Part shown: one piece after another, positions 8,405 to 23,702 of the stretch
Layout of the letters: each line of letters opens with the position of its first letter
How positions within the stretch are numbered: the stretch's first letter is position 1
DNA from: Desulfofustis limnaeus
GTDB taxonomy: Bacteria; Desulfobacterota; Desulfobulbia; Desulfobulbales; Desulfocapsaceae
DNA length: 64,000 nt
Direction of reading: 5' to 3'
Assembly (NCBI RefSeq): GCF_023169885.1
Contig: NZ_AP025516.1
Coordinates: 4,009,501 to 4,073,500 of the forward strand
Program-made: the position numbers and the translations under genes
The notes under the pieces: model-generated
Told to the model about the DNA's origin: nothing
Database searches by the model: none
What the model saw: the letters and a program-made list of their open reading frames with translations, nothing else

Positions 8405-9196
8405 TTATTTGTATGCGGTGATCGCCGCCGCGCGGACGTGTTGTTCGACGCCGCTGCCGGGAAACCAGTCACGGATGAATGCATCGCTCGTTTCCTGAAC
8501 GATGACTGATACGCTTGCAAAACCGGCCTGTTTCAATAGCTGCTCGATGTTGGTGATTGTTGCCGCACCCGTGACGCAGCCGCAATGGGCATCGACATCG
8601 TTTTTGATGTGCTCCGGCAGTGGTGAAATCGCCACGACATCGGATATGGCCAATCTGCCACCGGGTCGCAGTACCCGGTATGCTTCACGGAATACCTGCT
8701 CTTTGGCCGGGGATAGATTGATGACGCAGTTGGACATGATGACATCGACTGAATTGTCGGCGACCGGCAGATGTTCGATTTCTCCCAAACGGAACTCGAC
8801 ATTTTTCAGCTCGCTTTGCCGTGCGTTGTTCCTTGATTTGGCAATCATTTCCGGCGTCATATCCACACCGATCACCTGCCCGTCATCGCCAACCTGGCGA
8901 GCTGCCAGAAAACAGTCGAAGCCGCCGCCGCTACCGAGGTCGAGAACCACTTCGCCCGGTTTCAGGGCGGCGATGGTCTGGGGGTTACCGCAGCCAAGGC
9001 CCATGTTCGAGCCTTCCGGGACCCGAGCCAGTTCGTCTTTCGTATACCCCAGGCGGGTTGAAAAGGCAGCGTTGCCCAGGGTTGCCGGTGAGCAGCAACC
9101 GGTTGAACAACACGAATCAGACGTTTTCGCTATTTCAGCGTAGCGGGTGCGCACGTGCTCCCGGACACGATCGTCCTGCGAGTTTTCCATATTCAT
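8405..9196 (-). CDS. arsM: Arsenite S-adenosylmethionine methyltransferase
   Basis: A 263-residue class I methyltransferase. The SAM-binding loop is VLDLGSGGGFDCF near residue 84. It has the Cys set expected for As(III) binding: CCSTGCC near residues 29-35, CVIN in the MSNCVINLS segment, and GCVTG. ArsM methylates trivalent arsenic to mono-, di- and trimethyl forms. It is the last gene of arsR-arsC-arsM. Its ATG overlaps the arsC stop (ATGA), showing translational coupling. Confidence 0.95.
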   Translation of the reverse strand: MNMENSQDDRVREHVRTRYAEIAKTSDSCCSTGCCSPATLGNAAFSTRLGYTKDELARVPEGSNMGLGCGNPQTIAALKPGEVVLDLGSGGGFDCFLAARQVGDDGQVIGVDMTPEMIAKSRNNARQSELKNVEFRLGEIEHLPVADNSVDVIMSNCVINLSPAKEQVFREAYRVLRPGGRLAISDVVAISPLPEHIKNDVDAHCGCVTGAATITNIEQLLKQAGFASVSVIVQETSDAFIRDWFPGSGVEQHVRAAAITAYK

Positions 9197-9648
9197 CCCT
9201 CTTTTTTGTTTAATGATTCCGGCATGGTTTCGACAAATGCTTTGATTTCGTCTCTGATTCGGCGGTAACAGTCCAATTGCTCCTCCTCGGTGGCTCCCAT
9301 TTTTGCAAGCGCTCTTGCCATGTGCGGCGGATCGGCAAAGCCGACGTGGAACACCCTGCCGTTTCCTGGGAAAAACGGGCAGGTTTCATGAGCGTGGTCG
9401 CACACGGTGATGACGTAGTCCACTCTCGAATGGGTGAACTCATCGATATGTTTCGATCTGTGGCCGGAAATATCGACACCGGCTTCCGCCATGACGGTGA
9501 CGGCGCGCTGATCAAGGCCGTGCGTTTCAATGCCAGCAGAATAGGCCTCGATGACATCGCCTTTCAGGTGGTGTGCCCAACCTTCTGCCATCTGACTACG
9601 GCATGAGTTTCCCGTACACAGAAACAGTACCTTCAGTTTGTTGGTCAT
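9193..9648 (-). CDS. arsC: Thioredoxin-coupled arsenate reductase
   Basis: A 151-residue low-molecular-weight phosphatase-fold ArsC. The P-loop CTGNSCRSQMAEG is near residues 11-23. Further cysteines lie in VCDHAHETCPFFPG, matching the Cys82/Cys89 relay of the thioredoxin-dependent class. It reduces As(V) to As(III), which arsM can then methylate. No arsenite efflux pump gene (arsB/acr3) is present in the cluster, which is unusual: detoxification here would depend on methylation or on a pump encoded elsewhere. Confidence 0.95.
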   Translation of the reverse strand: MTNKLKVLFLCTGNSCRSQMAEGWAHHLKGDVIEAYSAGIETHGLDQRAVTVMAEAGVDISGHRSKHIDEFTHSRVDYVITVCDHAHETCPFFPGNGRVFHVGFADPPHMARALAKMGATEEEQLDCYRRIRDEIKAFVETMPESLNKKEG

Positions 9649-9780
9649 GGTTCAATACGTTATGCTCAATGGTAAAACGAATGAGATCGGGTCGTTTTCC
9701 TCAGAAGCTCATTCCATTATTCTGGTAACGTCGAAAGATAGAGGAAAAGATTTTACTGCACCAAGCGCCCCGTCATGTTT

Positions 9781-10089
9781 CTATTTCAGCTCATGGATTT
9801 TCTGCTGGAGTGAACAGCACTCGGAGAGCAGGAAATCGGCAAGCTCCCTGATCGCTTTGATCTGCGGTTGGCAATAGAGCGTGCGGCTGTCTCGTTTTTG
9901 CGTGACCAGGCCGACACGAACCAAGCGCTGTATATGGTGGGTGAGCGTCGAAGCCGGTACGTCCAGATTTTTTTGGATCGCACCGACCGGCAACCCGTCC
10001 TGTCCAGCCTTGACAAGTAGCCTGAGAATCGAAAGGCGGGTTTTGTTGCCCATCTCCGCGCACCGCTGGGCAGCTTGATCAAGATTCAT
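9781..10089 (-). CDS. arsR: ArsR-family arsenic-responsive repressor
   Basis: A 102-residue winged-helix protein: MGNKTRLSILRLLVKAG at the start of the domain, recognition helix VPASTLTHHIQRLVRVGLV, and a wing with RDSRTLYCQ. A C-terminal ECC pair near residue 92 could bind As(III) together with the Cys in the wing; the classical ELCVC site in helix 3 is absent. It is the first gene of the leftward arsenic operon. The promoter and an inverted-repeat operator lie immediately upstream. Confidence 0.92.
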   Translation of the reverse strand: MNLDQAAQRCAEMGNKTRLSILRLLVKAGQDGLPVGAIQKNLDVPASTLTHHIQRLVRVGLVTQKRDSRTLYCQPQIKAIRELADFLLSECCSLQQKIHELK

Positions 10090-15182: not shown

Positions 15183-15959
15183 TCAGGAGGCCTTTTTAAA
15201 GACGATCAACGGGCAGTTTTTACAAATATCGGCACCCGGGAAGGCGTCTCCGGGGCGGGTAATGGAGGAACTGCCAAGTTTTTCCTTGCGCTCGAGCAGT
15301 CTTTGAACGAGCGGCTCGAGATGTTCGCCGGGAATGATGAAGTTGGTTTCACCACGTTCGGTTTTACCGGCGTTGTAGGACCCTGAACAGGCCGGCAGGG
15401 TGTTCGCCAGTTTTTCGTTGTATACGTATACGTTACCTGCGCATGCCGAGGAGTTCATCGTGATGTTAGGCCGCATCGGGTGATTGTCGGTGGCTGCCAT
15501 CCAGTCGACGGCAAGATGGTAGGCCTGCATGTTGTCACAATAGAAGTGGACCGTGTCGGGGACAAATTTAATGTCGCCCAGCGGGGCAACCACGACCCCG
15601 ATCAGCCCAGGCTTGAGACGCGGTTTGGAACGTACGAACCGTTCCGCCTGCGCCTCGTCCTTGACATACTTGAGATGGCTCTTGATCTCTTTATCGTCAA
15701 TGTCTTTCCAACCGAAACTGCATTGCGAGTTTGTGCATCCGAGCCCTTCCTGTTCGGCGTAGACGATCTGTCCCTTCATTCGGGCGGCGATCTCCCACTG
15801 GCAGAAAGTCATCGGTTTTACCGGCGTATAATATTCGTGATCCTTCTTGAATTGGTCAATTTCCTTTTGGTCGAAGAAGAATTTGACGGCAATGGGGAAG
15901 TGGTAAAGCCTTAATTCTTCCATCAGAGTGTGTTGCATTTCTTTGTAACTGAGCGCCAT
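15183..15959 (-). CDS. DUF169 family protein
   Basis: A 258-residue protein matching DUF169, a family common in sulfate reducers and other anaerobes. Visible features are FPIAVKFFFD near residue 20, conserved cysteines in TFCQW, GCTNSQCSFGW and ACSGSYN, and the C-terminal pair ICKNCPLIVF. The Cys content suggests a metal or Fe-S role; the function is unknown. I chose ATG 15959 because AGGAGG lies 7 bases upstream; the frame extends 30 residues further without another good site. A near-palindrome at 15991-16011 lies just upstream. Confidence 0.8.
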   Translation of the reverse strand: MALSYKEMQHTLMEELRLYHFPIAVKFFFDQKEIDQFKKDHEYYTPVKPMTFCQWEIAARMKGQIVYAEQEGLGCTNSQCSFGWKDIDDKEIKSHLKYVKDEAQAERFVRSKPRLKPGLIGVVVAPLGDIKFVPDTVHFYCDNMQAYHLAVDWMAATDNHPMRPNITMNSSACAGNVYVYNEKLANTLPACSGSYNAGKTERGETNFIIPGEHLEPLVQRLLERKEKLGSSSITRPGDAFPGADICKNCPLIVFKKAS

Positions 15960-15990
15960 AATATCCTCCTGTTGGCAGTTGACAACGATC

Positions 15991-16011
15991 TCATGGAGAG
16001 ATCTCTCATGA
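15991..16011. promoter_or_regulatory. Near-perfect palindrome upstream of the DUF169 gene
   Basis: The 21-base segment TCATGGAGAGATCTCTCATGA is a palindrome except for one extra G; its core GAGAGATCTCTC is exact. It lies about 35 bp upstream of the start codon on the leader side, where a repressor site or an mRNA stem could act. Confidence 0.4.
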
Positions 16012-16656
16012 CTTGCTGTGACAATCTTGAAGCTACCCATTAATAGCAAATTCCGTACCTGCTGGATGGAATCGTTCTCGAATCTGGTGGGCCTTTTGTA
16101 AAAGATCTTTGTGTTTGTTCCTAACGTACTGGTATAAAATGATTAATATGGCATTTTTGCCGGTCGAAATAGATGGGCAGACCAAGGGAGTTATTTTTGG
16201 CTGGAGATCAGAGGGGGGCCACCCGGTTTGAATTGAGTGGTTGAGACGCCTTTTCTGCATCAATTTTGTGGCATGAAGCTGCCATAAACATTTCAAGACG
16301 AACAATTATTATTTTGTATTAACATGTTATCTGGTGCAACATTTATGCTGCATCAGCTGCACCGACATGGATTTATGATCATGGATGAACAGGTCTGGCA
16401 CCAAAACAAATAGGCCTTTGCACCAACTAACGCGTGCAACAAAAGGGTTGCTGCTAAAAGGAAGGTCGTTGAGTGGCCGTTACGGCTCGCCGTGCCCCCT
16501 GCCGATGGAGGGTCGGGATTTTCGATAGGCTGTTGCGTTGAAGGGAAAGGGAAAGGCAGAATCGGTCACGTATCCATGGTCGAGGCAAGGGGAGCGGTGG
16601 CTGGAAAGAAACCAGCTGGCTGCCGGTACAGATCCGGTACGAGCAGGTATCTGTCC

Positions 16657-16785: not shown

Positions 16786-18921
16786 TCAGTTCGGTAAGGC
16801 CATTTCCTCCTTCTCGACGATGTGTGGCTCGTTGGGGCAGGATCTGGCGATACGCGTCTGGTCCCTTGGCAGGTCATCCTGGTCGTAGCAATAGATGCCG
16901 CAGTTCAGACAGCGGTTTGCTTCCTGCTGGCACTGCTGCTCGGTAATCGTCCCTTCGACCTCCCGGAACGTGCCCATCCGATCCTCGACCGGGATGACCG
17001 GCTTAATCGCGCTGGTGGGAGTCGGGATCACATTGACCAGTGAGTCGATCATCGCCGGTGCCATCATCTCGCGTTGGCGGTATTCGATGGGCGGGATGGC
17101 GCCGGTGGTAACATAATAATGAATCGATCGAGCGGCATATCTTCCGGCGGCGATGGCCTCGACCATCAAGCGCGGCCCGCTGTAACAGTCACCGCCGGCA
17201 AATACTCCCGGCAACGAGGTTTGTAGCGTGTCCTCGTCGGCATCGATGGTGCTGTAGCGGGTTTTGGCCAACCCATCGGCCGCGATAATATCGTTGAGGT
17301 CGGCAGCTTGGCCCACCGCCTGAATAACCACATCACAGTCTACTATCTCGTTTGATCCTTCAACCGGTATGACTTCAGGCAGGCCGCCGGTGGGTGAATG
17401 GCGCAAGGTCACCTCCTGCACTTCGATTCCGGTCAGTCGGCCGTTTTCACCGATGAACCGCACCGGGGAGACGAGGCAGCGCATGATCACGCCCTCGTTT
17501 TCCGCATCGGTGATTTCGTGAGCGTTGGCTTCCATCAGGTCACGGGAGAAACGGAAAATCAGTAGCACGCTGGAGGCCCCTGCGCGCAGCGCCGAGCGGG
17601 CACAGTCCATGGCCACGTTACCGGCGCCGATCACCACAAAGCGTTTGCCTTGGATAATTTCCTCATCGGTGTGAAAACGCCGAAGGTAGTCGATACCGCT
17701 GTAGATTCCGGTCAGTTCTTTACCCTCCAGGGGGATCATTCGGCCGAACCAGGCTCCGATGGCCAGGTAGACAGCGTCGAATCCGTTGTTGCGCAGGAAC
17801 TGGATGGTGAAGTCTTTGCCCAGGGTGACGTTGGTATGTGCGGTGATGCCGAGTTCCAAGATGCCTTCGATATCCCAGTCAAGTTGCTCATCAGACAAAC
17901 GGTAATCTGGAATCCCGTAACGGGGCATACCGCCCAATTTGGGCATCTTCTCGAAAATTTCCACCTGATGGCCGAGGCGACGCAGGTAATAGGCGGCGGA
18001 CAGTCCGGATGGGCCACCACCGACCACTGCGATTTTATAGCCGGTATCGGCAGCCACGGAAACCGGGATTCGTTTGCCGCTGCTGCGTTCCCAATCGGAG
18101 ACGAAGCGCTTGACCGGGTTGATGGCGAGCGGATCATCGTTGATCGTACGCCGGCATTCGGTGGCGCACAATTCCGGACAGACCCGGCCGGTTGCCACGG
18201 GCAGTGGGTTGTTGTCCTTGATGGTCATCAGCGCTGCACCGTATTCGCCGCGGCGCGCATGAGCGAGGTATTTGGGGATGTTGATTTGGGCCGGACAGCG
18301 CTGCCGACACGGCGACAAGCACTGGGTATACTGGTTCCAGTGCAGGATCTTGGTCTTTTCGCCCACCAGGGAGATGATGCCTTTGGGGCAGGCCTCAATG
18401 CAACTGCCGCAGCCGACGCACCGATCCGGATCGAAAACCGGCAGGCCGCTGACGTTATCCATGCGAATGGCCGAAAACTTACAGGCCTTGAAACAGGAGC
18501 CCAGGCCGAGGCAACCGTTTTCGCAGCGGATGAAGCCGTGGTAGAGTTGAAGTGCCGCCCGGCAATCCTGCAGGCCGGAATAATGGTACTTCCGCGCGGC
18601 CCGGTAGCCACCCTCACAGGTTGAGCAGGCGAGTTTTGGTTCGGAACCGGTCACATCGTAACCGAGCAAAGTGCCGATGGCCTCGGCGGTTTCGGTGCCG
18701 CCCACCACGCAGACGTTCACCTCGAGTCTTCTCTGCACGATCGCTTCAGCGGTGGCGTTACAACCGGCTTGCCCGCAACCGCCGCAGTTGGCGCCGGGCA
18801 GCAGGTTGGCGACCGCCTCGATTCTCGGATCCTCGTCAACATAAAATAATCTGCCGGCTATCCCAAGGATGACGGCAGCGACAAAACCAATACTGGTCAG
18901 TAATACGATCGGCGTAATCAC
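16786..18921 (-). CDS. rnfB: RnfB fused to GltD-like NAD(P)H/FAD oxidoreductase
   Basis: A 711-residue fusion. Residues 1-25 are the RnfB membrane anchor. The RnfB Fe-S domain has ANCGGCGQAGC at 45-54. Further Cys motifs follow at 99-102, 120-147 and 168-178 (CVGCGSCIEACP). A domain of the small glutamate synthase subunit/NfnB type then starts near residue 200. Its Cys-rich N-terminus lies at 201-256 (CLSPCRQRCP, CPELCATEC), the FAD loop GGGPSG at 301-306 and the NAD(P) loop IGAGNVA at 431-437. AGGDC (FAD pyrophosphate) is near 580, and a final CLNCGIYC Cys set is near 680. RnfB normally accepts electrons from ferredoxin and ends near 280-330 residues. The added module would give Rnf a second NAD(P)H site (inference). 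It is the last gene of the operon. Confidence 0.93.
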   Translation of the reverse strand: MITPIVLLTSIGFVAAVILGIAGRLFYVDEDPRIEAVANLLPGANCGGCGQAGCNATAEAIVQRRLEVNVCVVGGTETAEAIGTLLGYDVTGSEPKLACSTCEGGYRAARKYHYSGLQDCRAALQLYHGFIRCENGCLGLGSCFKACKFSAIRMDNVSGLPVFDPDRCVGCGSCIEACPKGIISLVGEKTKILHWNQYTQCLSPCRQRCPAQINIPKYLAHARRGEYGAALMTIKDNNPLPVATGRVCPELCATECRRTINDDPLAINPVKRFVSDWERSSGKRIPVSVAADTGYKIAVVGGGPSGLSAAYYLRRLGHQVEIFEKMPKLGGMPRYGIPDYRLSDEQLDWDIEGILELGITAHTNVTLGKDFTIQFLRNNGFDAVYLAIGAWFGRMIPLEGKELTGIYSGIDYLRRFHTDEEIIQGKRFVVIGAGNVAMDCARSALRAGASSVLLIFRFSRDLMEANAHEITDAENEGVIMRCLVSPVRFIGENGRLTGIEVQEVTLRHSPTGGLPEVIPVEGSNEIVDCDVVIQAVGQAADLNDIIAADGLAKTRYSTIDADEDTLQTSLPGVFAGGDCYSGPRLMVEAIAAGRYAARSIHYYVTTGAIPPIEYRQREMMAPAMIDSLVNVIPTPTSAIKPVIPVEDRMGTFREVEGTITEQQCQQEANRCLNCGIYCYDQDDLPRDQTRIARSCPNEPHIVEKEEMALPN

Positions 18922-18938: not shown

Positions 18939-19514
18939 TTAATTGGCCATACCCCGGAAACCGATAAACGCGAGCGACATGATCCCGGCAGTCACCAGGG
19001 CGATGGCCGTACCCTGCATGCTTCTCGGGATTGCGGATATCTGCAGCCGCTCGCGATGCCCGGCGAACAGCAGAAGGGCTAAGGCATAACCAACCGCACT
19101 GGTGCTCGAGAAGACCAGCATTTCAATGAATGCCAGCTCTTTGCGGGCAACGAGCAAAACCACGCCCAGGACCGCGCAGTTGGTGGTGATCAAAGCAAGA
19201 TAGACACCAAGGGCGTCGTAGAGCACCTTGCTTTTCTTTTTTAATATAATTTCAACAAATTGAACGAGTGAGGCAATAATGAGGATAAAGGTCAGGGTCT
19301 GGAGGAACTCGAGACCGTAAGGACGAAGCATGTAGACGAGTACCGCCCAGGTGAAGACGGCGGAGAGGATGGTCACGAAGATGATGGCAGCCGCCATGCC
19401 GGCAGCCGTTTCGATCCTCTTGGAGACGCCGAGAAACGGACAGTTTCCGAGATACTGGGCAAGAAGGATATTGTTGACGAAGGTCGCCGATATGGCGAGG
19501 TAAAAAAGATCCAT
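18939..19514 (-). CDS. rnfA: Rnf complex subunit RnfA
   Basis: A 191-residue integral membrane protein of the RnfA/NqrE family with six predicted helices. Typical sequences are NNILLAQYLGNCPFLGVSKR near residue 14 and TNCAVLGVVLL near residue 110. Each half carries a conserved Cys (GNCPFLG, TNCAVLG) that in this family ligates the intramembrane Fe-S cluster formed with RnfE. It lies between rnfE and rnfB in a leftward operon with short gaps of 11 and 17 bp. Confidence 0.96.
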   Translation of the reverse strand: MDLFYLAISATFVNNILLAQYLGNCPFLGVSKRIETAAGMAAAIIFVTILSAVFTWAVLVYMLRPYGLEFLQTLTFILIIASLVQFVEIILKKKSKVLYDALGVYLALITTNCAVLGVVLLVARKELAFIEMLVFSSTSAVGYALALLLFAGHRERLQISAIPRSMQGTAIALVTAGIMSLAFIGFRGMAN

Positions 19515-19525
19515 GGAGCTACCCC

Positions 19526-20149
19526 TTAACCCTGTATGAATTTTTCACCGCGCCAGCGGGAAAAGAGATTCTGCAGACCGAGCAGGATACCGAGCGTGAC
19601 AAACGCGCCCGGCGCCAGGATGAGAAAAGCGAGCGGTTCGAATGCTTCCCCGAAGACAGGCATGCCGAACCACAAACCGGTGCCGAACAATTCCCGGATC
19701 GACCCGATCAGCGTCAGCGAAATGGTATAGCCGATGCCGACACTCAGCCCGTCTGTCATGGAAAGAAGCGGCGGGTTCTTCGAGGCGAAGCCTTCCGCTC
19801 GTCCGAGGACGATGCAGTTGACCACGATCAGGGGGATATAGATGCCAAGCTGCTCGGACAACGGGAAGAAATAGGCCTTCATCAGTATCTCGACAATGGA
19901 GACCAGGGTGGCGATGATAACTATGTAGGAAGCAATGCGGACCTTGCTGGGAATGACGGTTCGCAAAGCGGAGATGATGCCGTTGGACATGATGACGACA
20001 AAGGCCAGGGCGAGCCCCATGCCCAGTCCGTTTTCCGCCGAAGTGGTAATCGCCAGTGCCGGACAGAGACCGAGGACCAGGCGAAACGGCGGCAGCCGCT
20101 TCCACAGGCCGGCTTTCAGTGTTGCCCCCAGGAGTTGTGCCTGACTCAT
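19526..20149 (-). CDS. rnfE: Rnf complex subunit RnfE
   Basis: A 207-residue membrane protein of the RnfE/NqrD family and homologue of RnfA, with six helices. Conserved Cys-containing segments are LVLGLCPALAITTSAENGLGMG near residue 25 and VVNCIVLGRAEGFASKNP near residue 110. With RnfA it forms the membrane half-channels around an Fe-S centre. The start overlaps the end of rnfG by 4 bp. Confidence 0.96.
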   Translation of the reverse strand: MSQAQLLGATLKAGLWKRLPPFRLVLGLCPALAITTSAENGLGMGLALAFVVIMSNGIISALRTVIPSKVRIASYIVIIATLVSIVEILMKAYFFPLSEQLGIYIPLIVVNCIVLGRAEGFASKNPPLLSMTDGLSVGIGYTISLTLIGSIRELFGTGLWFGMPVFGEAFEPLAFLILAPGAFVTLGILLGLQNLFSRWRGEKFIQG

Positions 20150-20745
20150 ATCCTTTCCTCGAGTTTTGAGATTGATTGCAGGATCTGATCCTTATGATCG
20201 CGCAGGAACTGCAAAACGTCGTTGGTCCCGGCGACGGCGGCTCGAGATGTTGTCGTGGCGCCGCTGATGCCGTCGATATCGCCGCCGTCCTTGGTCAGTG
20301 CCACCGTTTTATCGGTGGGTAAACCCTGCCACTGACGTCTGAACGAAACCTCCTCGATGCGGGCCCCGAGCCCTGGCGTCTCGCTGTGGCTGACCACTTC
20401 CAGACCTGTCTGGCGGCCGGAACGGAGGTCGACGCCGAACATCAGCTTCAGGTCGCCACCGAATCCGCCCTTGCCGGTAGCCTCGATGGCGAGGGTGGCG
20501 ATATCATCGCCTTGCTTGCTGAAAAAGACCGGGATGACCGCCCCCTCCAGGGGGATCGTTACCTTGTTGTTCAATACCTCGGTTGCCGGCTTGCCGAATA
20601 ATCGTTCCAACGCCGGACCGCGAACATAATAGTCGGTTTGTTGCTCAATTCGAGGAGCCAGGCTTTGGTCGGCAAAGGTGAGAATCGCCGAACAGATGCC
20701 GGCGATGAGTGAGAGAACGACCACCATGCGTACAATCTCAGACAT
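20146..20745 (-). CDS. rnfG: Rnf complex FMN-binding subunit RnfG
   Basis: A 199-residue protein with one N-terminal membrane helix and a periplasmic FMN-binding domain. The covalent flavin attachment motif is GISGATTTS near residue 158, where a Thr is phosphoester-linked to FMN after ApbE action. No apbE gene lies in the window, so flavinylation must rely on a gene elsewhere. It overlaps rnfD by 8 bp and rnfE by 4 bp. Confidence 0.95.
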   Translation of the reverse strand: MSEIVRMVVVLSLIAGICSAILTFADQSLAPRIEQQTDYYVRGPALERLFGKPATEVLNNKVTIPLEGAVIPVFFSKQGDDIATLAIEATGKGGFGGDLKLMFGVDLRSGRQTGLEVVSHSETPGLGARIEEVSFRRQWQGLPTDKTVALTKDGGDIDGISGATTTSRAAVAGTNDVLQFLRDHKDQILQSISKLEERI

Positions 20746-21733
20746 TTCTCCCCCCTTTCACCTTCGGCTTGATCATATCCAGGAGTGGCGAGCAAATATT
20801 TGCCAGCAGCACCGCATAGACGACGCCGTCCACATGCTGTGAGTAGCCCCGGATGAGCATGAGCAGGACACCGGCGAGGATGCCGTAGCAGAACATGGGC
20901 ACCTTGTTGACCGGTGAGGTGGTGTGGTCGGTTATCAGGAAAAGACCCATGAATGCGGTGCCACCGCTCAGCAAGTGAAAGATCGGGGTGGCGAAGACCT
21001 CCGGGTTGGACACGTGCAGCAGGTAGGCGGTGGTCAGCAGACCGGCCAGGAATCCGGCGGGCACCTGCCATTGAATCTCGCGCACCAAGACCAGAAATAG
21101 ACCGCCCAGGAGCAGTAGCAAGACCATGCCATCGGCCGTACCGGCCACCTGGCGGCCGAGGAAAAGATCGGCCCACTGATACTGGATTTCAGCATTAGCC
21201 CCGATGGACTTGAGCAGACGCAGTGGCTCGATCATGGTGGTCGGCCAGTCCATATCCTTCAAGGCGCCGGTGTTGTCCATGCGGCCGGGCCAGGAAAGCT
21301 GGAGAACCGCGATACTGAGAACAGCCGGGTGAGCAGGGAAGGCGCCGACGCCGCCGAAAAGCTTCTTGCCCACGATCACCATGAAAAAGCAGCCGGTGAG
21401 GATGAGCCACCAGGGAGCGTTGACCGGCAACATGAAGGCAAGCAACAGCGCCAAAACCACACTGCTCCAATTGGAAGTGAGATCGCGAGAAGGAGCCAAT
21501 CGTTCGGCAAGAAGATCCAGGGCCACAGCGAAACAGATAGATAAACCGACGACCCGCAGCGCTGCCGGTCCGTGAAAATAGAGACTGCCCAACAGTGCCG
21601 GCAGCAGGGCAATCGCCCAGCGCTGGTGAGCCAGGGCCAAGCCGGTTCCCATGCGACAATGGGGACCGACAGCCACATCGAGCGTGCCCGGCTCAGTCGG
21701 CCGCGGCGGCTGATACATTTTCAGTTCTGTCAT
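20738..21733 (-). CDS. rnfD: Rnf complex subunit RnfD
   Basis: A 331-residue polytopic membrane protein of the NqrB/RnfD family. A soluble N-terminal stretch (QPPRPTEPGTLDVAVGPHC) leads into about nine helices. The segment FLITDHTTSPVNKVPM near residue 245 corresponds to the region that holds covalent FMN-Thr in the family. With RnfG it forms the flavin path and ion-pumping core. Its ATG overlaps the rnfC stop (ATGA). Confidence 0.95.
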   Translation of the reverse strand: MTELKMYQPPRPTEPGTLDVAVGPHCRMGTGLALAHQRWAIALLPALLGSLYFHGPAALRVVGLSICFAVALDLLAERLAPSRDLTSNWSSVVLALLLAFMLPVNAPWWLILTGCFFMVIVGKKLFGGVGAFPAHPAVLSIAVLQLSWPGRMDNTGALKDMDWPTTMIEPLRLLKSIGANAEIQYQWADLFLGRQVAGTADGMVLLLLLGGLFLVLVREIQWQVPAGFLAGLLTTAYLLHVSNPEVFATPIFHLLSGGTAFMGLFLITDHTTSPVNKVPMFCYGILAGVLLMLIRGYSQHVDGVVYAVLLANICSPLLDMIKPKVKGGRNV

Positions 21734-23049
21734 TTCTTGGCCTTCTCGTTCCAGTTATATCGTTCTGCCTGAGTCACTTCGTGGTTGCAGAAATGAAGGA
21801 GTTGCACGATCGGTCGCTGGGCTGGACACACATGGGCGCAGAGACCGCATTCGTGGCATGCTTCCGGATGGAGATCTTTAGCCGCTTCCAGTTCGCCAAA
21901 CTCGATCATCCGGTTGACCAGATGTACCTGAATGCCGGCCGGACAGACTCGCGTGCAGCGCCCGCAGAAGATGCATGGGGCGACGGGGTCGAACGGGGAA
22001 AGGTCCTCGGCGATAAGGAAGATGCCGCTTTTATACGTGACCGGAGTCAAATCGGAATATTGGGCGACTCCCGTCATCGGTCCGCCGACCACGGTACGCT
22101 TATAGTCGGAAGCTTTCAGCCCTTGGCTGCCGAGGATGTGCCGCACCGAACTGCCCAGCGGGAAGCGTACGGTAATCGCTTTATCCTGGTTGGTGCCGCT
22201 GATCGTCAGACATTTCTGGAGGAACGGGGAGGTGCCCTGCAGGGCGTCGACCGTGGCTAGCAGGTATTCCAGGTCCTGAACAATGATCCCCTGGCTGATG
22301 AAGCTCTCGGTGTTCAGGATCCTCTGACCGAGCAGACGGGCAACGAGTTCGCGCTCGATGCGGGCCGTATAGTGAGTCGGTACGGCTACGACCTCCACCC
22401 ATTCTGAAAATCGGCTTTGAGCCCAGGAGTGCAAATGCTCCGGGACGGTAAGCCAGATGGGTACGTCGGGGAGCAATGAACGGCCTATCCGAAGCCCTTC
22501 CGATAGCGTATCGGCGCGCTGTTCGAGCAGCAACTGGGCAGTGAGGATCGTTGGTTCCTCGTGGATTCCTTTAATAATCACCGCCTTGATCCGTGGCAGT
22601 CCCTCGATCTGGCCGTCTCCGTAATCGCGACCGGATAAGCGCCAGGGTGGGTTCACACCGGCGGAGCGGATCCGGGCCAGGGCCGAGTATGGATCGCCGA
22701 CAGTAACAGGTCCATCGAACATTTCCTCCGGGGTTAATCCTTGTTTCCCGTCGTTTTCTATGACCACGGCCGGAGAATGGACGCTGTGGGTTGTCCAGGT
22801 GGTGGTTATCTCCTTGACCTTGCCGCTGATACTGGCAAAAGCGCAGTTGCCGAGTCGCGAACGGCCGATGACCTGCCCCCGGCGGACGGAGTCCCCGGCC
22901 TGCACGGTTGGCAGATAATGAATTCGGCCTGGGTAATCCAGAGGGATCACGACGCGGTCCGGCTCTTCCACTTGGCGGATGACGGGATCGAAATCAGGTA
23001 CGGTGGGTAGTTCCGATTTGTTGCTGAACAGTTTGAAGAATCCTTGCAT
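21730..23049 (-). CDS. rnfC: Rnf complex NADH-binding subunit RnfC
   Basis: A 439-residue peripheral subunit with an N-terminal barrel-sandwich domain (VVIPLDYPGRIHYLPTVQAGDSV), a central NADH/FMN-binding Rossmann-like domain, and a C-terminal ferredoxin domain with two clusters (CIFCGRCTRVCPAG and CHECGLCAHVCPAQ). It normally oxidises or reduces NAD. I place the start at ATG 23049, 18 bp after the cytochrome stop; a GTG in frame at 23091 would overlap the cytochrome gene. No strong ribosome site is visible, so coupling to the upstream gene is likely. It shares its last 4 bp with rnfD. Confidence 0.95.
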   Translation of the reverse strand: MQGFFKLFSNKSELPTVPDFDPVIRQVEEPDRVVIPLDYPGRIHYLPTVQAGDSVRRGQVIGRSRLGNCAFASISGKVKEITTTWTTHSVHSPAVVIENDGKQGLTPEEMFDGPVTVGDPYSALARIRSAGVNPPWRLSGRDYGDGQIEGLPRIKAVIIKGIHEEPTILTAQLLLEQRADTLSEGLRIGRSLLPDVPIWLTVPEHLHSWAQSRFSEWVEVVAVPTHYTARIERELVARLLGQRILNTESFISQGIIVQDLEYLLATVDALQGTSPFLQKCLTISGTNQDKAITVRFPLGSSVRHILGSQGLKASDYKRTVVGGPMTGVAQYSDLTPVTYKSGIFLIAEDLSPFDPVAPCIFCGRCTRVCPAGIQVHLVNRMIEFGELEAAKDLHPEACHECGLCAHVCPAQRPIVQLLHFCNHEVTQAERYNWNEKAKK

Positions 23050-23066
23050 GGCTGGTTCGTGAGTTC

Positions 23067-23702
23067 TTAGCGTAAGTGACAAGCCCCGCACAATACCTCT
23101 TTATCGGCTTGCGCGAATCGTTCCGGTGACGTGTCCAGGTGGCAGTTTGAACAGGTAAAGTGGTATGCATCGGCAAGAGATCGGGGGGCATGGCAGCCCA
23201 GGCAGGAATGCTCTTCTATCTCGAGGTATTCGTCATGGCTCATGATCTCCGGAGTATAGCTGTCATCGTGGCAGCTGGCGCAGCTCACGGTGTCGGCCTC
23301 CTCCTGTTGCAACGTCGGGTGGCACTGGCGGCACGAGGCGGCCTGTTCGTCGCCGGCCTGTTGCTCGTGGCACTGGCTGCAGTCCTGGTTGTGCAACTCT
23401 TTGAGGCTGTCATGGTCAAGGTCGTCTTTGTCACGGCCATCGTCATGGCAGTCGGCGCAGGAAACAGCTTGTGCCGCAGCGTAGAGCGGATGATGGCAGG
23501 CGGCGCAGGATGCAACGTACTCGCTTTGATGAGCGCCATGGTCAAAAAGCACCGGTCCGGCCGTGGCGCGAAGATATTTTCGATCCGTTTCCACGGCATC
23601 GCTGTCGATCAGATAGCCGCCAATGACTGCAGCCACAGCAACAACGACTACAACCGTCAGCGATCGGGTCCAGTTGCGCCGATCGGGGAGATTACCACTC
23701 AT
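23067..23702 (-). CDS. Membrane-anchored octahaem cytochrome c of the rnf operon
   Basis: A 211-residue protein with one N-terminal membrane helix (residues 14-32) and eight CxxCH haem sites: CAACH, CADCH, CSQCH, CRQCH, CASCH, CLGCH, CSNCH and CGACH. Additional histidines could act as distal ligands. The motif spacing resembles class III or NapC/cytochrome-c3-like multihaem proteins. Multihaem cytochromes at the head of rnf operons are known in sulfate reducers and methanogens and may link Rnf to periplasmic electron carriers. The start overlaps the upstream zinc-ribbon gene by 11 bp. Confidence 0.92.
   Translation of the reverse strand: MSGNLPDRRNWTRSLTVVVVVAVAAVIGGYLIDSDAVETDRKYLRATAGPVLFDHGAHQSEYVASCAACHHPLYAAAQAVSCADCHDDGRDKDDLDHDSLKELHNQDCSQCHEQQAGDEQAASCRQCHPTLQQEEADTVSCASCHDDSYTPEIMSHDEYLEIEEHSCLGCHAPRSLADAYHFTCSNCHLDTSPERFAQADKEVLCGACHLR

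Follow-up and report, generated by a model that had tools for sequence, protein, structure and literature searches.

An RnfB with a fused NAD(P)H module and predicted loss of flavin sites on RnfC and RnfD in a cytochrome-associated Rnf complex of Desulfofustis limnaeus

Canonical Rnf passes electrons from ferredoxin through RnfB, RnfA/E, the FMN of RnfG, the FMN of RnfD, riboflavin, the clusters of RnfC and finally the FMN of RnfC to NAD+, and direct electron transfer between RnfB and RnfC is considered unlikely. A 64,000-nucleotide stretch of the Desulfofustis limnaeus genome (positions 4,009,501 to 4,073,500 of contig NZ_AP025516.1, hereafter the window) raises the question of what such a complex does when RnfB carries an NAD(P)H module of its own. 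A sequence-only reading of this locus had proposed that the module adds a second pyridine-nucleotide site to that of RnfC. The fused architecture itself is already published as "Tol2-type" Rnf2, of which the window complex is a further member.

The fused rnfB gene occupies 16786..18921, where that reading had placed it, and lies on the minus strand, as do all features of the operon given below. We found a single frame of 711 codons with zero stops, and Pfam and PDB matches to both parts bear out the proposed union of RnfB with a GltD/NfnB-like module. The RnfB core (residues 1-190; 18352..18921) begins with one hydrophobic, putatively transmembrane helix, followed by an FeS domain (Pfam, residues 41-72; C46, C49, C54, C71) and an eight-cysteine ferredoxin dicluster (residues 134-184), and residues 2-193 match the RnfB structures of A. 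woodii and C. tetanomorphum in the PDB. Behind it stand a Fer4_20 cluster domain (residues 200-281; 18079..18324), whose cysteines C201, C205, C209, C248, C252 and C256 are supported by Pfam and the alignment of fusions, and the FAD and NAD(P)H module (residues 295-606; 17104..18039), in which Pyr_redox_2 matches residues 295-593 with 108 bits and the previously listed loops GGGPSG, IGAGNVA and AGGDC are all found. Residues ~199-680 match NfnA, StnC, NfnL and GltD in the PDB, with E values down to 1e-110. The C-terminal tail (16786..17103) carries RCLNCGIYC (C671, C674, C678); since residues 646-675 align to residues 14-43 of NfnL, its N-terminal CLxC region, the set of cluster cysteines is complete, in permuted order. 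The tail cysteines are invariant in all 60 aligned fusions and those of the core likewise, save in three proteins without the N-terminus. The AlphaFold2 model of the protein, built from 11 close sequences, reached a mean pLDDT of 41, too low to be relied on.

An assembly or frameshift artefact joining two genes, a possibility that the sequence-only reading had itself raised, was ruled out: in addition to the open frame, the host assembly is a single contig of 4.23 Mb, the same full-length frame, 75-86% identical, was recovered independently from ten relatives (Desulfofustis, Desulfopila, Desulforhopalus and related MAGs), and comparison with two relatives gave dN/dS values of 0.06-0.09 (fused module) and 0.08-0.10 (RnfB core). 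The fused part is thus under purifying selection. Furthermore, the loss of FAD/NADPH-binding residues in close relatives that had been considered is not seen there: their glycine motifs for both FAD and NAD(P) are in place.

The gene order of the operon is cyt-rnfC-D-G-E-A-B, with the rnfB fusion last. Its first gene encodes a class III-type cytochrome c (23067..23702) with eight CxxCH motifs and an N-terminal hydrophobic helix; rnfC (21730..23091), rnfD (20738..21733), rnfG (20146..20745, with the covalent-FMN motif SGATTT), rnfE (19526..20149) and rnfA (18939..19514) follow, the last two each encoding both metal-ligand cysteines. Translation of rnfB starts at a GTG at 18921, and a purine-rich, Shine-Dalgarno-like stretch lies between it and the rnfA stop. 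Downstream of rnfB, a DUF169 gene (Pfam) occupies 15183-16049 on the same strand, and further along, at 8405-10089 of the minus strand, arsenite methyltransferase-, low-molecular-weight arsenate reductase- and ArsR-like genes were recognised by eye.

The decisive subunit for the question of a second site is RnfC. The window RnfC retains the eight cysteines of two [4Fe-4S] clusters and is without the FMN/NADH site: VNPPWRLSG (22630..22656) stands at the position of the FMN loop GxGGAGFPT of intact RnfC, the ECEPY and YPxGxE motifs are missing, and the protein gives no Pfam match to Complex1_51K (PF01512) or SLBB (PF10531). It scores 179 bits against the rnfC family model TIGR01945, whose cut-off is 246, versus 529 for the second RnfC of the genome. 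The latter has all FMN/NADH motifs, Complex1_51K (188 bits) and SLBB, and belongs to a standard rnf operon (~C1:4.135-4.143 Mb) whose RnfB has 311 aa and which includes an ApbE gene. The complete rnfCDGEAB set of the window would suit an ordinary ferredoxin:NAD+ Rnf to which the fusion is an accessory, but with RnfC below the family cut-off and FMN sites gone from both RnfC and RnfD (see below), we regard this as scarcely credible.

As the first site is already gone from RnfC, the proposal of a second one has to be rejected. Judged by its motifs, the NAD(P)H site was relocated to RnfB and not added there, the RnfB site being the sole recognisable one. The earlier reading was therefore right that the module is fused and its loops are intact, and wrong in leaving NAD to RnfC. 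It had further suggested that a doubly equipped complex could extend to NADPH or work by NfnAB-like confurcation, in line with the homology of the module to NfnL and StnC and with the retained ferredoxin dicluster of RnfB; the missing RnfC site and the change of a YRR motif to FRF make this improbable. YRR is typical of NADPH-linked NfnL/GltD-type members. We found YRR in solved NfnL/StnC-group homologues and in most other fusions of the alpha group defined below, and FRF throughout the window clade (in the window FRFSRD, residues 456-461; 17539..17556). In its two Rossmann motifs, GGD motif and Fer4_20 clusters the module conforms to the NfnL/GltD type, but it does not share YRR. The replacement suggests a weaker preference for NADPH, the NADPH specificity of the window-clade RnfB is doubtful, and the nucleotide of these complexes may be NADH rather than NADPH.

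To place the window operon among its relatives, we compared 128 rnf operons from a 395-genome Desulfobacterota sample and named relatives, scoring RnfC on three motifs (GxGGAGFPT, NGAECEPY and YPxGxEKQL; maximum 27). The scores are bimodal, with 63 operons at 3-11 (lost), 65 at 19-27 (intact) and none between. Some lost-site RnfCs retain weak Complex1_51K matches (28-78 bits), so that the loss appears graded at the level of the fold, and all eight cluster cysteines are retained in 63 of 63. This survey, which the sequence-only reading had suggested, returned 35 rnf operons with a fused RnfB, every one with a lost-site RnfC; none of the 65 intact operons is fused. RnfB is unfused in 74 operons, 62 of them intact, and in the remainder the stretch read contains no RnfB. 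The 12 unfused lost-class operons show that the RnfC site can be lost without the fusion. Among 93 Desulfocapsaceae genomes, lost-site RnfC and fused RnfB occur in the identical 14, each of which also gives a canonical-type RnfC match. Lost-site RnfC with an unfused RnfB of 269-318 aa is seen at L177-L180, L099, L111, L113 and L123, and L177-L180 have a ten-haem cytochrome, like the published D. alaskensis operon. Within the genus of the window, one genome has a second fusion (G513:C49:54861-60759), 44% identical and beside another RnfC-like gene, which is probably a second Rnf2 operon; on the second contig of the Desulfofustis PB-SRB1 assembly, the Rnf2 operon L049 is split into short frames, probably by sequencing error.

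We then asked which other cofactor sites differ between the two classes, reading RnfD and RnfA from aligned columns. FMN is attached to RnfD at Thr153 in the structure of C. tetanomorphum Rnf (PMC9588780) and at Thr156 in a second Rnf structure. In the window, Glu169 (codon 21227..21229) is aligned with Thr153. All intact-class operons except one that is truncated at that point (56 of 57) have the threonine. In the lost class it is found in 5 of 57, the residue in this column usually being Tyr, Glu, Pro, Asp or Ser; the [ST]xATx[LI] motif is left in three of these 57, one of which (L196) lies outside the lost-class clade. By this alignment, the covalent-FMN threonine of RnfD is lost along with the RnfC site. 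Our literature search, which covered papers outside their supplements, found no earlier report of this RnfD change in these bacteria. Other sites of the lost class persist: the RnfA/E metal cysteines in 57 of 57 operons, the FMN motif of RnfG (as an SGAS variant in six, several of which are closely related to that of the window), and the riboflavin-ligand Asn in 42 of 57, with Asp or Glu in 57 of 57.

A tree built on RnfD+E+A gathers 56 of the 57 lost-class tips in a single clade (support 0.86), whose deepest branches are unfused operons; the window operon falls within it and may share its descent with the Rnf2 of Desulfobacteraceae. The fusion sub-clade (support 0.72) includes unfused members. 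The association between fusion and site loss is dominated by this single clade and thus amounts to about one evolutionary event, not 35, and Fisher p values make it look stronger than it is. The fused modules themselves form one weakly supported clade (0.53), including three shorter 600-aa forms, and within it a beta clade (support 1.0) has broken NAD(P) and GGD motifs; the window belongs to alpha, with the motifs intact. Beta fusions that keep their cluster cysteines without NAD(P) and GGD motifs would fit a module with a structural or regulatory, non-catalytic role, but every glycine motif is present in the alpha group of the window and its module evolves at a dN/dS of only 0.06-0.09, and we consider such a role highly improbable here. 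Several variants were observed among the fusions. Beta members (L051, L054, L057, L062, L066 and others) often lie outside rnf operons, beside an RseC-like gene, and many genomes have one alpha and one beta copy. At L073 and L077 an alpha fusion adjoins a NarI-like membrane subunit and an Fe-S protein resembling DsrMK. The 600-aa forms (L067, L068, L069) are without the membrane helix and FeS domain and neighbour 2-oxoacid:ferredoxin oxidoreductase, fumarate reductase-like and succinyl-CoA ligase-like genes.

The cytochrome gene also follows the class of the operon. When any ORF with three or more CxxCH motifs was counted up to 3 kb from the operon, whether or not it resembled the window cytochrome, a multihaem cytochrome c gene was found near 47 of 63 lost-class operons and one of 65 intact-class operons; the 16 lost-site operons without one include 10 with a fused RnfB. 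With the outward limb of the complex intact, the donor end of RnfB changed to NAD(P)H/FAD and the return limb deprived of two flavin sites, electron exchange with a periplasmic cytochrome at RnfG is the simplest reading. We propose, at about an even chance, that the window complex acts as a membrane NAD(P)H:cytochrome c oxidoreductase in which the RnfC/NAD return limb is dismantled. NAD(P)H would exchange electrons with the FAD of the RnfB module, sited where other RnfBs have extra ferredoxin clusters, and the electrons would run along the RnfB clusters to the RnfA/E metal centre and the FMN of the periplasmic RnfG, from where they would pass to the co-encoded octahaem cytochrome c rather than back via RnfD and RnfC. 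The limb to which Na+ coupling is assigned in A. woodii Rnf, the outward one (PMC11889175), would be retained. The flow could also be reversed, with periplasmic electrons imported and NAD(P)H made.

This oxidoreductase reading draws support from the coincidence of RnfC-site loss and fusion, the disappearance of the RnfD threonine beside conserved RnfA/E and RnfG sites, the skewed distribution of the cytochrome, and the homology of the module, with all its cluster cysteines, to solved NAD(P)H-FAD modules. There is also precedent, as a route from NAD(P)H to the outside that needs no flavinylated RnfD has been proposed for Nqr/Rnf-like complexes, and the reading is compatible with D. alaskensis vesicles, in which Fd:NAD+ coupling could not be demonstrated, if the RnfC of that species is of the lost class. 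Several points weigh against it: lost-site operons without a nearby cytochrome exist, mutants in the D. alaskensis operon cytochrome dhcA have almost no fitness defect, unlike rnf mutants, non-covalent FMN could persist on RnfD, and the association traces to about one event in a single clade. Furthermore, a dead-end RnfC should not need the clusters that it invariably keeps. Because both [4Fe-4S] clusters are there, a ferredoxin exit stays conceivable: NAD(P)H would enter at RnfB and electrons would return via RnfD, by riboflavin and non-covalent FMN, to the RnfC clusters and a ferredoxin-like one-electron carrier. The conserved cluster cysteines, the cluster that an RnfC without FMN would expose and the prevalence of the riboflavin-ligand residue favour such a route. 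It is nevertheless unlikely, as the RnfD FMN site is gone, the cytochrome gene is left unexplained, and with ferredoxin placed at the normal delivery end of the pump, its oxidation would not drive outward pumping.

Extending the cytochrome-linked reading beyond the window, we tentatively suggest, with somewhat less than an even chance, that those Rnf complexes of sulfate reducers which are associated with cytochromes work as "half-U" machines and not as ferredoxin:NAD+ pumps. The return limb (RnfD-FMN and RnfC-FMN/NAD) would have been dismantled once, with electron entry and exit between RnfG and cytochrome c, and one sub-lineage would then have gained a GltD-type RnfB module, with NAD(P)H replacing ferredoxin. 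Energy balances in which Rnf2 figures as a ferredoxin:NAD+ pump would have to be revised if RnfB indeed holds the relocated NAD(P)H site and the RnfD/RnfC limb is missing. A natural complex without the second half of the electron path would also make the coupling site of Rnf testable.

Among known systems, canonical Rnf of A. woodii and C. tetanomorphum (9eri, 7zc6) shares with the window RnfA/E/G, the RnfB core and the cluster and metal ligands, and differs in having no RnfB extension and in possessing the RnfC FMN/NADH site and the RnfD FMN threonine. The NfnL/GltD/StnC/NfnA modules share the Fer4_20 and Pyr_redox_2 order and the full set of cluster cysteines, with the CLxC pair at the C-terminal end in the window RnfB, StnC and NfnA and not in NfnL; in the window the module is joined to a membrane-anchored RnfB and YRR is changed. 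Na+-NQR likewise admits NAD(P)H at the B/F position via FAD and has a C/A subunit without an FMN/NADH site, but NqrF is an unrelated FNR-type protein and the acceptor is quinone; NqrA is also without clusters, whereas the window RnfC keeps them and the core is RnfB-type, which sets the window complex apart from Na+-NQR. The Rnf of Methanosarcina acetivorans, compared by description and not by sequence, is linked to the multihaem cytochrome c MmcA, is fed by ferredoxin and has no fused NAD(P)H module.

The most similar known system is Tol2-type Rnf2. Desulfobacula toluolica Tol2 and Desulfococcus multivorans were described with a large RnfB and a reduced RnfC, the mode of action being left open (PMC5109826). 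In another study, Rnf2 is reported to be abundant and constitutive in marine Desulfobacteraceae and is viewed as a sodium pump coupling NADH, ferredoxin and NADP pools jointly with Nfn (PMC11887813). Tol2-type Rnf2 and the window share a ~700-aa RnfB with NAD-binding sites (PMC5109826, PMC11887813), an RnfC without NADH-ubiquinone oxidoreductase and SLBB domains, and a cytochrome gene in the rnf cluster, and D. multivorans, like the window genome, has a second, classical Rnf. The fused RnfB with reduced RnfC was therefore known; the loss of the RnfD FMN threonine seen in the window goes without mention in the passages on Tol2-type Rnf2 that our search returned, and we found no previous report of it. 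The window complex further differs from the Tol2-type members in its Desulfocapsaceae host, a family in which the type is patchy (14 of 93 genomes), in its octahaem cytochrome and in the replacement of YRR.
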